A program made the position numbers and the translations under genes. Positions 49,995-63,270 of a DNA stretch of 64,000 nt are shown one piece after another. Under the pieces are notes generated by a model, which did not search any database, was not told the DNA's origin, and saw nothing but the letters and a program-made list of their open reading frames with translations. Origin of the DNA: Caulobacter endophyticus (GTDB lineage Bacteria > Pseudomonadota > Alphaproteobacteria > Caulobacterales > Caulobacteraceae); the NCBI RefSeq assembly GCF_003116815.1, contig NZ_QDKQ01000076.1, positions 1-64,000 on the forward strand. Direction: 5' to 3'. The stretch's first letter is position 1. Every line of letters starts with the position of its first letter.

Positions 49995-50596
49995 GCCTGG
50001 AGGGCTCCGTGCAGGCGCAGGAAGTCGAGCAGGCCGGTCATCGGCAGCCCGAGGATGGTGAAGTAGTCGCCGTCTATACGGTCGAACATCTGCAGGCCTT
50101 CACCCTCCAGCATGTAGCAGCCGACAGACGACAGGATCTGTTCGCCGTTGCGCTCCAGATAGCCGTCGAGCCAGGCCTCGCTGAACGGCCGCACCGACAG
50201 CTTGGCGGTCTCGACGATCCGCCAGATCGGCTGGCCGTCGCGAGCCACCACGACGCCCGAATGCAGCTTGTGGATTTCTCCACGCAACTCCAGCAGGCGA
50301 GCCCGTGCGGCTTCCAGGGTGTCGACCTTGTCGAACAGCCGGCCCTTCAGCTCCAGGGTCTGGTCTGAGCCGATCACGAGGCCGGGGCGCCTGTGGGAAA
50401 CCTTGACCGCCTTCATCTCGGCCAGGGCGTCGGCCACGTCGCGCGGCGTGACCTCTTCGGCCAGCAGGCCGGCCTTGGCGGCTTCTTCGTCCACACCCGA
50501 GGCCACGGCCTCGAACGGCACGCCGGCGTTCCTGAGGATGGTCTGGCGGGTCCAGCTGGTGGACGCCAGGACGATGGGGAGGGCGGAGGCGCTCAT
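49991..50596 (-). CDS. maf: Maf/YhdE-family nucleotide pyrophosphatase
   Basis: This 201-aa protein has the Maf opening [22 protein letters not shown] and the motifs [13 protein letters not shown] and [24 protein letters not shown]. These enzymes hydrolyse non-canonical nucleoside triphosphates such as dTTP/UTP/m7GTP analogues. It overlaps ppsR's stop by four bases. Confidence 0.93.
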
Positions 50597-51495
50597 CCGA
50601 GCACCTCGACCTGGCCCCGGCCGCCCGACAGCAGGTTGATGATCGCCGCGGCGGTCTCTTCCACAGAGCGGCGGGTGACGTCGATGATCGGCCAGCCGTT
50701 CTTCTCGAACAGGCGGCGGGCGGCGATGATCTCGGCCCGCACGCTGTCGGTGTCGATATAATCGCTCTCTCTATTCTCCTTGAGAGACAGCAGTCGGTTG
50801 CGGCGGATCTGGATCAGCCGCTCGGGCGTGGTCATCAGGCCCACGATCAGGGTGTTCTTCAGCTCGAACAGCTGCTCGGGCGGCGCACGGCCCGGCACCA
50901 GCGGCACATTGGCGGCGCGCACCCCGCGGTGGGCCAGATAGATGCAGGTGGGCGTCTTGGACGTGCGCGACACGCCCACCAGGATCACATCGGCCTGGGT
51001 CAGGTCCTGGCCGCCCTGGCCGTCATCGTGGGCGATGGCGTAGTCGAGGGCTTCGATGCGGTCGAAATAGTCGTTGTTGAGCGCGTGCTGCGCGCCCACG
51101 CGCGTGGAGATCTTGGCCCCCAGGTAGCGCGACATGGCGCTGACCACGGGGTCGAGGGCCGCGATGCACGGCATGTCGAGCTTGCGGCAGCCTTCTTCCA
51201 GCGCCGAGCGGAGGTTGGGGTCGATGATGGTGTGCATGACCACCCCCGGCGCCCCGGCGATCTCCTCCAGCGCCCGATCCAGCTGCCGGATGGAACGCAC
51301 CAGCGCATAGATGTGTTCGATAGGCAGGATATCGGTGAACCGTGCACAGACCGCCCGCGCCATGGCGTTCAAGGTCTCGCCCGTGGAGTCCGAAACCAGG
51401 TGGATATGGAAGTAGGTCGCGAACCGCGCGGTGTGGCGATCGGCCTCAGGCGACGCACTGTCCTGTGGATCATCCGTTAAGGGTTGCTTTACCAC
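50593..51495 (-). CDS. ppsR: Pyruvate, water dikinase/PPDK regulatory protein (DUF299)
   Basis: This bifunctional kinase/pyrophosphorylase controls PEP synthase or pyruvate phosphate dikinase. Signature pieces: YFHIHLVSDSTGETLNAMARAVC, the P-loop-like VGVSRTSKTPTCIYLAHRG and PLVPGRAPPEQLFEL. Start taken at GTG 51495 (protein 300 aa) because AGAAGG is eight bases before it; the open frame extends to 51591, but that part is not protein-like and overlaps the origin. In C. crescentus the equivalent gene borders the replication origin. It is the first gene of the operon running to dnaQ. Confidence 0.93.
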   Translation of the reverse strand: MVKQPLTDDPQDSASPEADRHTARFATYFHIHLVSDSTGETLNAMARAVCARFTDILPIEHIYALVRSIRQLDRALEEIAGAPGVVMHTIIDPNLRSALEEGCRKLDMPCIAALDPVVSAMSRYLGAKISTRVGAQHALNNDYFDRIEALDYAIAHDDGQGGQDLTQADVILVGVSRTSKTPTCIYLAHRGVRAANVPLVPGRAPPEQLFELKNTLIVGLMTTPERLIQIRRNRLLSLKENRESDYIDTDSVRAEIIAARRLFEKNGWPIIDVTRRSVEETAAAIINLLSGGRGQVEVLG

Positions 51496-51666
51496 TCTGG
51501 GAGCCTTCTGGGGACAAGCGGGCGCCAAATGCGCCCCAGCGCGACGCTGCGCCGCGCCCCTGTGATAAACGGCCTCATTGACGCCGGACAATCCCCAGCT
51601 TGAACCTGCCTACCGGGACCTGTGCCCGAGCGTTGTCCCGCGCTTGTGGAAAGTCCTAATGGATGG

Positions 51667-51681
51667 TTAATTTACCATTCA
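51667..51681. promoter_or_regulatory. CtrA-like binding site in the origin
   Basis: TTAA-N7-TTCA, one base off the CtrA consensus TTAA-N7-TTAA. In Caulobacter CtrA binding in the origin represses replication in swarmer cells. A second imperfect copy (TTAA-N7-TTTA) lies at 51477-51491. Confidence 0.5.
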
Positions 51682-51722
51682 CCATCGTCTGGGTTTCGTA
51701 AGGAATCCGATGGGTTGGAAGC

Positions 51723-51822
51723 TTGTCCACGAAGTTCACAGGGTATGACCCCCATGTGCACCAAGCTGGGGCATACCGAGTAGGGCCTGTTGGAGTTGTC
51801 CACCGGGGCGGACTTATCCCCG
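51723..51822. promoter_or_regulatory. Cluster of DnaA-like boxes
   Basis: Three same-strand boxes with 7 of 9 matches to TTATCCACA: TTGTCCACG (51723-51731), TTGTCCACC (51796-51804) and TTATCCCCG (51814-51822). Caulobacter origins use weak and moderate boxes rather than perfect E. coli ones, so this density near an AT-rich element is meaningful. Confidence 0.55.
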
Positions 51823-51833
51823 TGTTGCACTTG

Positions 51834-51885
51834 CCCTCCCCCTTCTTCCTCTCTCTCTAAGATTCTTATTTTTAAGAAGAATAAG
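51834..51885. other. Pyrimidine tract plus AT-rich palindrome (candidate unwinding element)
   Basis: A 25-base all-pyrimidine run (51834-51858) is followed by an AT-rich stretch containing two nested inverted repeats: TTCTTA-N4-TAAGAA (51863-51878) and CTTATT-N9-AATAAG (51865-51885). It adjoins the last DnaA-like box. Layout suits a duplex-unwinding element; inference. Confidence 0.5.
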
Positions 51886-51941
51886 GGGTACGGGATCGCA
51901 CGGACTTGAGTGGAACGGCTTGCCGGGATTTAACCGCCGGT

Positions 51942-52970
51942 ATGACGAGCTCTCCGATCCCGAAGTTTCTCTCCGTGCTGGCCGGTGAAACCGCCGAGCG
52001 TCCCCCGGTCTGGTTCATGCGCCAGGCGGGCCGGTATCTCCCCGAGTATCGCGCCGTGCGCGCGACGGCCCCGGACTTCATAAGCTTCTGCCTGAATCCA
52101 GAGAAAGCCGCCGAGGTCACCCTGCAGCCGCTGCGCCGCTTTCCGTACGACGCGGCCATCGTCTTCGCCGATATTTTGCTGATCCCCGGCGCGCTGGGCC
52201 AGAAGGTGTGGTTCGAGGCCGGCGAAGGCCCCAAGCTCGGCGAACTGCCCGACCTCGAGGCCATGGCCGACAGGACGCAGCAGGCCGGCGAGGCCCTGAA
52301 AGCCGTCGGTGAGACGCTCTCGCGCGTTCGCGCAGATATCGATCCTTCGAAGGCGCTGATCGGTTTCGCCGGCGCGCCGTGGACGGTGGCGACCTACATG
52401 ATCGAAGGCGGATCCAGCGATCGCTCGGGCGCGCGGACCTTCGCCTATCAGAACGCCGACAAGCTGGACCGGCTGATCCAGATCCTCGTCGACGCCACGG
52501 TCGATTATCTGGCCATGCAGGCCGCTTCCGGCGCCCAGGCGCTGAAGCTGTTCGAGAGCTGGGCCGAGGGCCTCTCCGAGCCGCTGTTCGAGCGCCTGGT
52601 GACCAAGCCCCACATCGCCATCGTCGAGGGCCTGCGGGCGCGGGGCGTGACCGTGCCGCTCATCGGCTTCCCCCGCGGGGCCGGAACGCTCGTCGAGGCC
52701 TACGCGCAGGCCGTGCCTGTGGACGGCGTGGCGCTCGACACCTCGGCCTCGGCGAAGCTGGGCCAGGCGATCCAGAAGACCAAGACCATCCAGGGCGCCC
52801 TTGATCCGCTGCTGCTGCGGGCCGGCGGCGCGGCATTGGACGAACGGGTGGAGCAGATGCTTCAGCAGTGGGGGCAGGGCCCCTATATCTTCAACCTGGG
52901 TCACGGCATCCTGCCCGACACGCCGATCGCTCACGTCGAGCAGGTGCTGAAGCGGGTGACCGGCCTGTGA
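51942..52970 (+). CDS. hemE: Uroporphyrinogen decarboxylase
   Basis: This 342-aa enzyme converts uroporphyrinogen III to coproporphyrinogen III. Signature N-terminal PPVWFMRQAGRYLPEYR, the FADILLIP loop with catalytic Asp and the GFAGAPWTVATYMIEGGSS motif are present. The gene is the first of hemE-hemH-hemJ and faces the origin; there is little ribosome-site sequence, so the message may be nearly leaderless, common in Caulobacter. GTGA overlap with hemH. Confidence 0.97.
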   Translation: MTSSPIPKFLSVLAGETAERPPVWFMRQAGRYLPEYRAVRATAPDFISFCLNPEKAAEVTLQPLRRFPYDAAIVFADILLIPGALGQKVWFEAGEGPKLGELPDLEAMADRTQQAGEALKAVGETLSRVRADIDPSKALIGFAGAPWTVATYMIEGGSSDRSGARTFAYQNADKLDRLIQILVDATVDYLAMQAASGAQALKLFESWAEGLSEPLFERLVTKPHIAIVEGLRARGVTVPLIGFPRGAGTLVEAYAQAVPVDGVALDTSASAKLGQAIQKTKTIQGALDPLLLRAGGAALDERVEQMLQQWGQGPYIFNLGHGILPDTPIAHVEQVLKRVTGL

Positions 52971-56242: not shown

Positions 56243-56260
56243 GTGTTTCACGTGAAACAC
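56243..56260. promoter_or_regulatory. parS: parS site 1 (perfect)
   Basis: GTGTTTCACGTGAAACAC is an 18-bp perfect palindrome whose inner 16 bases, TGTTTCACGTGAAACA, are the parS consensus bound by ParB. It lies 6 bases after the rho stop, in front of the rho terminator, about 4.3 kb from the origin. Confidence 0.97.
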
Positions 56261-58437: not shown

Positions 58438-59775
58438 ATGGCCGATACGATCTATGCGCCGGCCACGGCGGCCGGTCGCGCCGCCGTGGCGGTGATCCGC
58501 GTCTCGGGTCCGGCCAGCGGCGAGGCGGTGCGGGCCCTCACGGGAAACCTGCCCAAGACGCGCCAGGCCGTGCTTCGCACCCTGCGCCATGACGGCGTCG
58601 CGCTTGACGACGCGCTGGTGCTCTGGTTCCGGGGGCCGGCCAGCTACACCGGCGAGGACGCGGCCGAGTTTCACGTGCACGGGGGCAGGGCGGTCGTGGA
58701 GGCCCTGCTCGGCGCCCTGTCGGCCCTCGGCCTGCGCCTGGCCGAACCGGGCGAGTTCACTCGCCGGGCCTTCCAGCACGGCAAGCTCGACCTGGCTCAG
58801 GCCGAGGCCGTGGGCGACCTGATCGACGCCGAGACCGAAGGCCAGCGCAAGCAGGCGCTGGGACAACTGGGCGGCGCCTTGGGCCGTCGCTACGACGCTT
58901 GGCGCGATCTGCTGGTCCAGTCGCTGGCCATGCTGGAGGCCGCCGTCGACTTCCCCGACGAGGAACTGCCTGAGGACGTGGCTGCGCGGGCCCGCCCTGG
59001 CCTGGAGACGCTGAAGACCGAGATCGACGCCGCGCTGGCCGACGTTGCCCGTGGTCGCCGGGTGCGCGATGGCTTCCGCATCGCCCTGGTCGGCGCGCCC
59101 AATGCCGGCAAGAGCACCTTGCTCAATGCGCTGGCCGAGCGTGACGCCGCCATCGTCACCGCCACGCCGGGCACCACGCGTGACGTGATCGAGGTCCCGC
59201 TGGTGCTTGGCGGCTACAAGGCGCTGCTGGCCGATACGGCTGGAATCCGCGAAACGGTGGACGATATCGAGGCTGAGGGCGTGCGCCGGGCGCGGGTCTG
59301 GGCGCAGGAGGCGGACCTGCGTCTCTGGGTCGTCGATGCTGGCGAGTTTCACGTGAAACATTCCGAACATCACGAAATCGTCCGCCCCGGCGACTGGTTG
59401 GTGATCAACAAGATCGACCTGGTAGAGCCGGCTGCCGTTGCGGCCATACGCGCGCAGACGGCGTTGCTTGGATTGCACGTGGTGGCGCTGTCGGCGCGGG
59501 AACAGGGGGCCGGGCCTATTCGCGCCGCTCTGACCGATCACGTGGTCGACGCCCTTTCTGGCGCAGAGTTTCCGGCAGCCACCCGCATCCGCCACGCCGA
59601 ACGTCTTGGGGAGGCGAGGGCATTCCTTCAGCGCGCCTTAGCCGAAACAAGCGACGTGGAACTGGCTGCAGAGGATGTTCGCCTGGCTTCCCGTGCCCTT
59701 TCGCGGATTACAGGCCGCATCGATCCGGAGGACGTGCTTGATCGTGTCTTTTCAAGCTTCTGCATAGGGAAGTGA
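58438..59775 (+). CDS. mnmE: tRNA modification GTPase MnmE
   Basis: This 445-aa protein has the tetrahydrofolate-binding N-terminal domain, a G domain with [23 protein letters not shown] and NKIDL, and the C-terminal FCIGK with catalytic Cys. Together with MnmG it installs the 5-carboxymethylaminomethyl group at U34 of tRNA. Between the G3 and G4 motifs the loop reads [12 protein letters not shown], and those FHVKH codons are a parS site. MnmG follows 171 bp downstream, so the MnmE-MnmG complex is encoded together. Confidence 0.97.
59345..59360. promoter_or_regulatory. parS: parS site 2 (within mnmE)
   Basis: AGTTTCACGTGAAACA matches the 16-bp parS consensus in 15 of 16 bases. It encodes EFHVKH in a loop of the MnmE G domain, about residue 303. 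Confidence 0.93.
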
Positions 59776-61815: not shown

Positions 61816-62480
61816 TGGCTCAAGCCGCTCCTGAACTCGTCATCGAAACGCTCGACCCGGTCGACGCCGCAGCCTTCCAGAGGCTGACGGGGGCGACCGA
61901 CGCGCAGGTCGCCGACCTGGCGCGCTACAAGGACCTGCTGGCCGAGTGGAACGAGGTGATGAACCTCGTCGGCCCGGCCTCGATGGCGGCCTACTGGAAC
62001 CGCCATGCCTGGGACAGCGCCCAGCTGCTCACCTTCGCGCCGCAGGCCAAGGTCTGGGCCGATCTGGGAGCCGGTGCGGGCCTGCCGGGCGTGGTGCTGG
62101 CCATCCTGCTTAAGGGCGTGCCGGGGGCCAAGGTCCACCTCGTCGAGAGCATGGCCAAGCGCTGCCGCTTTCTCGACGCCGTCTGCCGCGAGCTCGATCT
62201 GCCGGTCGAGATCCACAACGCCCGCGCCGAGAGCCTGGACCTGAAGGTCCAGGTGGTCACCGCCCGGGCCTGTGCGCCGATGCCGCGCCTGCTGGAATAC
62301 TCGCAACGCTATTTCAAGCGCGGCGCGGTCGCCTGGTTCCTGAAGGGCCAGGAGGTCGCCGCCGAGATCGCCGAAGCCGAGAAGACCTGGAAGTTCGAGT
62401 CGGACGTGCGGAGCTCCAAGAGCGATCCGCGCGGCCATGTCGTGCAAATCAAGGGGCTGAGCCGTGTCCGCAAAGTCTGA
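61815..62480 (+). CDS. rsmG: 16S rRNA (guanine527-N7)-methyltransferase
   Basis: This 221-aa SAM methyltransferase has NLVGPASMAAYWNRHAWDS, the SAM loop WADLGAGAGLPGVVLA and VTARACAPMPRLLEY. It methylates G527 of 16S rRNA, the streptomycin-linked GidB. One-base overlap with mnmG; the last 17 bases overlap parA in another frame. Confidence 0.96.
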   Translation: MAQAAPELVIETLDPVDAAAFQRLTGATDAQVADLARYKDLLAEWNEVMNLVGPASMAAYWNRHAWDSAQLLTFAPQAKVWADLGAGAGLPGVVLAILLKGVPGAKVHLVESMAKRCRFLDAVCRELDLPVEIHNARAESLDLKVQVVTARACAPMPRLLEYSQRYFKRGAVAWFLKGQEVAAEIAEAEKTWKFESDVRSSKSDPRGHVVQIKGLSRVRKV

Positions 62481-63270
62481 GCTGAGAGTCCTGGCCGTCG
62501 CCAACCAGAAGGGCGGGGTGGGCAAGACCACCACGGCCATCAACCTGGGCACCGCCCTGGCCGCCTGTGGCGAGCGCGTGCTGCTGATCGACGCCGATCC
62601 GCAGGGCAACTGCTCCACGGGCCTGGGCATCGGTCGCCTGCAGCGCAAGAAGACGCTGTACGACGTGCTGATGGGCGAGGCCCCGGTGGTCGAGGCCGCC
62701 GTCCAGACCTCGCTGCCGGGCCTGGACGTGATCCCGGCCGACGCCGACCTGTCGGGGGTCGAGCTGGAACTCGGCCAGGTTGCCCGCCGTTCCTACCGCC
62801 TGCGCGACGCCCTGGAGCCGCTGCGCGCCAACGGCCCCTATACCTATGTGCTGATCGACTGCCCGCCGTCGCTGAACGTGCTGACGGTCAACGCCATGAC
62901 CGCCGCCGACGCCGTGTTCGTGCCGCTGCAGTGCGAGTTCTTCGCCCTGGAAGGTCTGACCCAGTTGATCCGCACCATCGAGCGGGTGCGCGGCAGCCTG
63001 AATCCGCGGCTGGAAATCCAGGGCGTGGTGCTGACCATGTACGATCGCCGTAACAGCCTTTCGGAGCAGGTAGCCCGGGACGTGCGCGAGCACTTCGGCG
63101 ACAAGGTGTACGACGCGGTCATACCGCGGAACGTCCGGGTCTCGGAGGCGCCGTCCTTCGGCAAGCCGGTGCTGCTTTATGATCTCAAGTGCGCCGGCAG
63201 CCAGGCCTACCTGCGGCTGGCCCGTGAGGTGATCAGCCGCGAGCGGGATCGACAGGCTCAGGCGGCCTGA
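62464..63270 (+). CDS. parA: Chromosome partitioning ATPase ParA
   Basis: This 268-aa deviant-Walker ATPase reads VANQKGGVGKTTTAINL (residues 12-28), IDADPQGN (42-49) and VLIDCPPSLNVLTVNA. From memory it is nearly the same as C. crescentus ParA. ParA-ATP binds DNA along the cell and pulls ParB-parS complexes to the new pole. GTG start lies inside rsmG, so translation is linked. Confidence 0.97.
   Translation: MSAKSELRVLAVANQKGGVGKTTTAINLGTALAACGERVLLIDADPQGNCSTGLGIGRLQRKKTLYDVLMGEAPVVEAAVQTSLPGLDVIPADADLSGVELELGQVARRSYRLRDALEPLRANGPYTYVLIDCPPSLNVLTVNAMTAADAVFVPLQCEFFALEGLTQLIRTIERVRGSLNPRLEIQGVVLTMYDRRNSLSEQVARDVREHFGDKVYDAVIPRNVRVSEAPSFGKPVLLYDLKCAGSQAYLRLAREVISRERDRQAQAA

Follow-up and report, generated by a model that had tools for sequence, protein, structure and literature searches.

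Our analysis supports the view that the gap between ppsR and hemE, within the 64,000-nucleotide stretch of DNA that was analysed (the window), is the conserved chromosomal origin position of Caulobacter, homologous to Cori of C. crescentus. We give a probability of about 80% to the reading that this is a single, Cori-homologous chromosomal origin in a lineage where control by CtrA, which halts replication in swarmer cells, has been re-tuned downward. The origin reading follows from the agreement of a motif excess, the flanking genes, parS and parAB, conservation across the genus, the turn of GC skew in a closed relative and alignment with Cori-type origins. Whereas the Cori-type origin is already known, the clade that includes the window is the only one in the genus whose origin lacks any perfect TTAA-N7-TTAA CtrA site. 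This state is unique within our genus sample and not within the family, because some Brevundimonas and one Phenylobacterium relative also have zero perfect origin CtrA sites. In the literature searched, outside which Shaheen et al. (2009) falls, we found no description of the origin of this clade.

Results

The source genome is a Caulobacter of 5.42 Mb in 78 contigs. Profile matches place ppsR (COG1806/DUF299; 50593-51495, minus strand; NF003742, E = 1.6e-102) and hemE (51942-52970, plus strand; TIGR01464, E = 2.3e-116) on either side of the gap, in agreement with the gene order around the C. crescentus origin that a sequence-only reading had cited. That origin has been mapped experimentally to the interval separating hemE from the ppsR/COG1806 gene CC0001 (PMC1914354). 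On the hemE side, hemH, rho, mnmE, mnmG, parA (62464-63270, plus strand) and parB (from 63353, after parA and running past the window end) follow, the last two named from recognisable sequence, and the ppsR side carries maf, aroE and coaE. A perfect parS 16-mer, TGTTTCACGTGAAACA, is found at 56244-56259, with near-matches at 59345, 59777 and 59836, which gives four parS-like sites 4.3-7.9 kb from the hemE start; in C. crescentus, parS is likewise reported within 8 kb of the origin (PMC4468827). The region is matched in 72 of 75 Caulobacter genomes, and a plasmid search with it returned distant coding similarity only. The gap had been described as non-coding, which is correct overall but uncertain at the left end, where the start codon of ppsR is uncertain and its frame is open to 51591. 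The leftmost DnaA box and CtrA site may therefore overlap the 5' end of ppsR.

Because the source genome is fragmented, GC skew was measured on a closed relative (G002) that is 95% identical over the region and is not rotated to the origin, using 120 stretches of 20 kb. Cumulative skew reaches its minimum in 1.199-1.226 Mb and peaks near 4.12 Mb, and the best two-break fit puts the turn at 1.17-1.21 Mb. The homologous ppsR-hemE gap lies at 1.2088 Mb, inside the minimum interval, so this check, set beforehand as the one that could overturn the origin reading, came out in its favour, and the alignment with C. vibrioides-type origins agrees. An origin at the start of the G002 record was rejected, as the skew turns 1.2 Mb away; the record opens close to a 136-aa protein with DnaA_C only (G002:C1:176-373) and was apparently rotated to the wrong gene.

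In the source genome, dnaA (G000:C76:77870-78076) lies on the same contig just beyond the window, about 26-27 kb from the gap on the hemE side. Its placement varies within the genus: in C. vibrioides-type genomes it sits on the ppsR side at a distance of ~7 kb, and an inversion flanking the origin that relocates dnaA has been described in strain K31 (PMC4221894). Since the skew resolution is about 27-50 kb, skew alone cannot separate the gap from dnaA. An active origin elsewhere nearby, for example at dnaA, with the gap serving as a divergent promoter region, is nevertheless very improbable. No 480-bp window combining as few as two CtrA sites with four DnaA sites occurs in the 2.4 Mb (42%) sampled from G002, the dnaA stretch included, so the motif cluster excludes dnaA as the origin; the cluster and an unwinding element are found in the gap, whose position is also that of the mapped Cori. 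In the sampled G002 sequence, the enrichment of TTAA-N7-TTAA over other spacings was too small for use.

Of the features used to recognise origins in PMC1914354, those present in the gap are an intergenic position adjacent to hemE/COG1806, a DnaA and CtrA cluster above chance, and raised AT with an unwinding element; on G002 they extend to the skew turn and the lack of a second cluster, at the resolution and sampling given above. Under the stricter patterns of that study, one CtrA site passes and zero DnaA boxes do.

We scored 51460-51941 against the DnaA consensus TTATCCACA and the CtrA consensus TTAA-N7-TTAA, with 500 dinucleotide shuffles as the null. Six DnaA-like boxes with at most two mismatches are present, compared to 0.96 +/- 0.97 in shuffles, none of which gets six. 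The best is a G-box, TGATCCACA (51464-51472, minus strand), an 8/9 match of the exact C. crescentus moderate-affinity type that occurs in 0/500 shuffles and is identical in 7/9 clade members and 33/36 other core Caulobacter genomes. This single 8/9 match had been noted before, together with four 7/9 boxes; we count five. The one at 51509-51517 contains a W-box, TCCCCA (51509-51514, minus strand), which reads TGGGGA in 45/45 genomes and is inverted relative to a second W-box, TCCCCA (51592-51597, plus strand), found as ATCCCCA in 44/45. The others are a weak box, CTTTCCACA (51645-51653, minus strand; 7/9 positions fixed in the clade), TTGTCCACG (51723-51731, plus strand; fixed 9/9), TTGTCCACC (51796-51804, plus strand; not conserved, with 6/9 positions fixed in the clade) and TTATCCCCG (51814-51822, plus strand; fixed 9/9). 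Two of these are slightly nearer the DnaA consensus in the clade: the box at 51723, which is CTATCCCCA or CCATCCACA in relatives, and the box at 51814, which is TTTTCCCC in most of them.

Between the inverted W-boxes sits a conserved block, CTGTGATAAACGG (51560-51572), with 13/13 positions fixed in the clade and CTGTGWTNAACGG present in 44/45 core genomes. It fits no DnaA, CtrA or IHF pattern that we used, and it may be an as yet undescribed element of the origin or belong to an RNA. Two GANTC sites had been listed among the origin-type elements; both are present, but 48% of shuffles reach two, and we rejected this chance-level count as an origin signal. The IHF pattern WATCAN5WTR has zero matches in the region and also zero in two other Caulobacter clades, and so does not discriminate within the genus.

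The gap is less GC-rich than the window (57% versus 69%; AT 43% versus 31%). No 40-mer in the 64 kb is less stable than 51846-51885, our candidate DNA-unwinding element. The AT-rich palindrome TTCTT..AAGAA (51863-51878), which lies within it, and the 25-base pyrimidine tract (51834-51858), which purines interrupt in other clades, are both present as the sequence-only reading had described. In the clade, 28/30 positions of 51857-51886 are fixed and the element is still AT-rich. Two other sequences in the gap may be promoters. TTGAG and CGGGNTTTAA (51906-51933) lie just 5' of the ATG of hemE and hardly vary within the genus, which suggests a promoter from which hemE would be transcribed with a very short leader or none. 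TTGACGC-N13-GCTTGAAC (51578-51605), which the window's clade carries, is similar to a Caulobacter housekeeping promoter directed at hemE.

For comparison across the genus, ppsR-hemE gaps were extracted as 93 distinct sequences and aligned. In a HemE plus PpsR tree, the window falls in a nine-genome clade with support 100, nested in a core group of 45 genomes with support 98. Conserved across the core are the G-box, the inverted W-boxes TGGGGA/TCCCCA, the CTGTGWTNAACGG block, CATGTG, TCCCC and the AT-rich element. C. vibrioides-type genomes show the five CtrA sites of C. crescentus, one of them (G072) as four 8/8 sites plus one 7/8.

The window has three CtrA sites where two near-matches had been reported, each 7/8 and none 8/8, and 0/500 shuffles reach three. 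The first, TTAA-GGGTTGC-TTTA (51477-51491), lies five bases from the G-box; it is TTAA-N7-TTTA in 9/9 clade members and TTAA-N7-TTAA in 36/36 other core genomes. The central site, TTAA-N7-TTAR elsewhere in the genus, is destroyed in 9/9 clade members, leaving the remnant TCTGGGTTTCGTAAG (51688-51702). About 30 bp upstream of it, all nine carry CTAA-N7-TTAA-N7-TTYA, an array of three half-sites with an 11-bp pitch. In the window, this array comprises a replacement site, CTAA-TGGATGG-TTAA (51656-51670), with both half-sites fixed 9/9 and a variable spacer, and a second site, TTAA-TTTACCA-TTCA (51667-51681), which shares the central TTAA and whose second half is TTCA in 7/9 and TTTA in 2/9. The unwinding-element site, TTAA-N7-TTAA in relatives, has become an out-of-register CTAA-N11-TTAA, a loss in 9/9 without replacement there.

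Perfect (8/8) origin CtrA sites therefore number 0 in 9/9 clade members compared to 2-4 in 36/36 other core genomes. As a proxy for affinity, each group was scored with a CtrA matrix that had been trained with that group excluded (leave-one-clade-out), and the site total is 13.1-14.4 in the clade versus 18.8-22.7 in every other group. The suspicion that box types and spacing might differ from C. crescentus was well placed, as the CtrA sites of the clade have been weakened, moved or lost. An important caveat is that weaker affinity is judged here from sequence, and CtrA tolerates imperfect sites, as the 7/8 match at its own promoter in every genome illustrates.

The weak sites still look selected, because half-sites are fixed while spacers drift: in the replacement array across the nine genomes, 11/12 half-site positions are fixed versus 2/14 spacer positions (Fisher P = 1e-4). 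This is the pattern expected if CtrA still binds. Overall, 76% of the gap is fixed in the clade, and by uncorrected per-element tests only the AT-rich element and the CTGTGATAAACGG block exceed that level. We do not favour altered CtrA specificity as the cause of the weak sites. CtrA of the clade is ~98% identical to the C. vibrioides-type protein (5/231 residues differ: I71V, S81T, S82A, V133I and H206Q), and the CtrA site in the ctrA promoter, TTAACCAGTCTTAAA, is unchanged. Perfect CtrA sites away from the origin persist at 7-12 per clade genome; other Caulobacter have 11-19 perfect sites per genome, 2-4 of them at the origin. The change in CtrA sites thus appears to be origin-specific.

In C. 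crescentus, a CtrA box drives a 182-nt RNA, CcnA, from inside Cori (PMC8959179). The positional counterpart here, about 51500-51690, is partly conserved. We rejected a CcnA-like RNA structure, since the alignment fold of the clade does not stand out from its column-shuffled controls (z -1.1). With all 45 rows the z is strong, but that value reflects local conservation, a property lost when columns are shuffled. Pairing between the two inverted W-boxes is conceivable in an RNA, which makes selection on RNA look the same as selection on the DNA boxes, and because these invariant boxes carry the alignment fold, it can show no compensatory change. No Rfam family matches the region.

Discussion

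The window shares with C. crescentus Cori its flanking genes, a G-box by a CtrA site, inverted W-boxes, an AT-rich unwinding element by hemE and parS no more than about 8 kb away. Cori has five full CtrA sites, whereas there are three here, all 7/8 and none in the AT-rich element; it has two G-boxes near or overlapping CtrA sites, whereas there is one exact G-box here, five bases from a CtrA site; and its overlapping CtrA/IHF site is replaced by GTTCACARGGTATGA, which has no IHF match. TTGTCCACG and TTATCCCCG replace weaker boxes here. Because the five CtrA sites, the two G-boxes and the CtrA/IHF site are none of them found in that form, we read this sequence as a variant of the known Cori type rather than the canonical Cori. 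Other Caulobacter clades (e.g. Caulobacter sp. Root1455, L033) share the layout, G-box, W-boxes, CTGTGWTNAACGG block and absence of the CtrA/IHF site, but keep 8/8 CtrA sites by the G-box and in the AT-rich element, with a central site of 7/8 or 8/8. The hemE/COG1806-type origins of Rickettsia and other Alphaproteobacteria occupy the same position between hemE and COG1806, although recognisable sequence similarity is limited to close relatives (PMC1914354).

By analogy with Cori and oriC, DnaA would probably bind at 51464, on the G-box, and spread cooperatively over the weaker boxes of 51509-51822. It would then open the AT-rich element at 51846-51885, allowing the helicase to load. Phosphorylated CtrA on 51477-51491 and on the three-half-site array (51656-51681) would exclude DnaA. 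With no consensus CtrA site, and none in the unwinding element, CtrA should have a looser grip on the origin, and DnaA control should carry more of the block in swarmer cells. In C. crescentus, the origin is reported to bind CtrA with higher affinity than any other target in the genome.

Weaker CtrA gating with an unwinding element free of CtrA is, in our assessment, the most likely state of this origin. We propose only tentatively the fuller version, that the lineage freed its origin from high-affinity CtrA repression, keeping a minimal weak gate and a CtrA-free unwinding element, with the G1 block imposed mainly via DnaA control. Cooperative compensation on the phased array is the main rival. 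The array could recover CtrA occupancy, and this would then be an ordinary Cori with unchanged CtrA control, in which turnover exchanged the consensus sites for 7/8 sites and an array that, through cooperativity, bind CtrA equally well. This is a genuine possibility, since the fixed half-sites amid drifting spacers indicate sites still under selection, the array retains its 11-bp register, and a second CtrA site at the same distance from hemE in Clade C (L021, L123, L130) suggests local turnover. However, the site in the unwinding element was lost without replacement there in all nine genomes, and neutral turnover alone would not favour the downgrading of every site.

It is unlikely, by comparison, that CtrA control of initiation has been lost altogether, leaving the remaining CtrA-like sites with transcriptional roles only, for example at the promoters of ppsR and hemE or for a CcnA-like RNA. 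The lack of any 8/8 site, the partly conserved stretch corresponding to CtrA-driven CcnA and the nearly normal cycling of C. crescentus with all five sites weakened (PMC4468827) fit such a loss, but the site beside the G-box is kept at 7/8 in 9/9 clade members, precisely where a block to DnaA would be most direct.

Even in the best-studied bacterial cell cycle, it is an open question how much the block to replication owes to CtrA at the origin. When all five of its origin CtrA sites are weakened, C. crescentus cycles near-normally in the laboratory but is stress-sensitive (PMC4468827). If the fuller version of the weaker-gating reading is true, this lineage would be a natural counterpart of that mutant. 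A clade whose origin CtrA sites have all been weakened by evolution, with CtrA itself nearly identical, would offer a comparative test of how important CtrA binding at the origin is.
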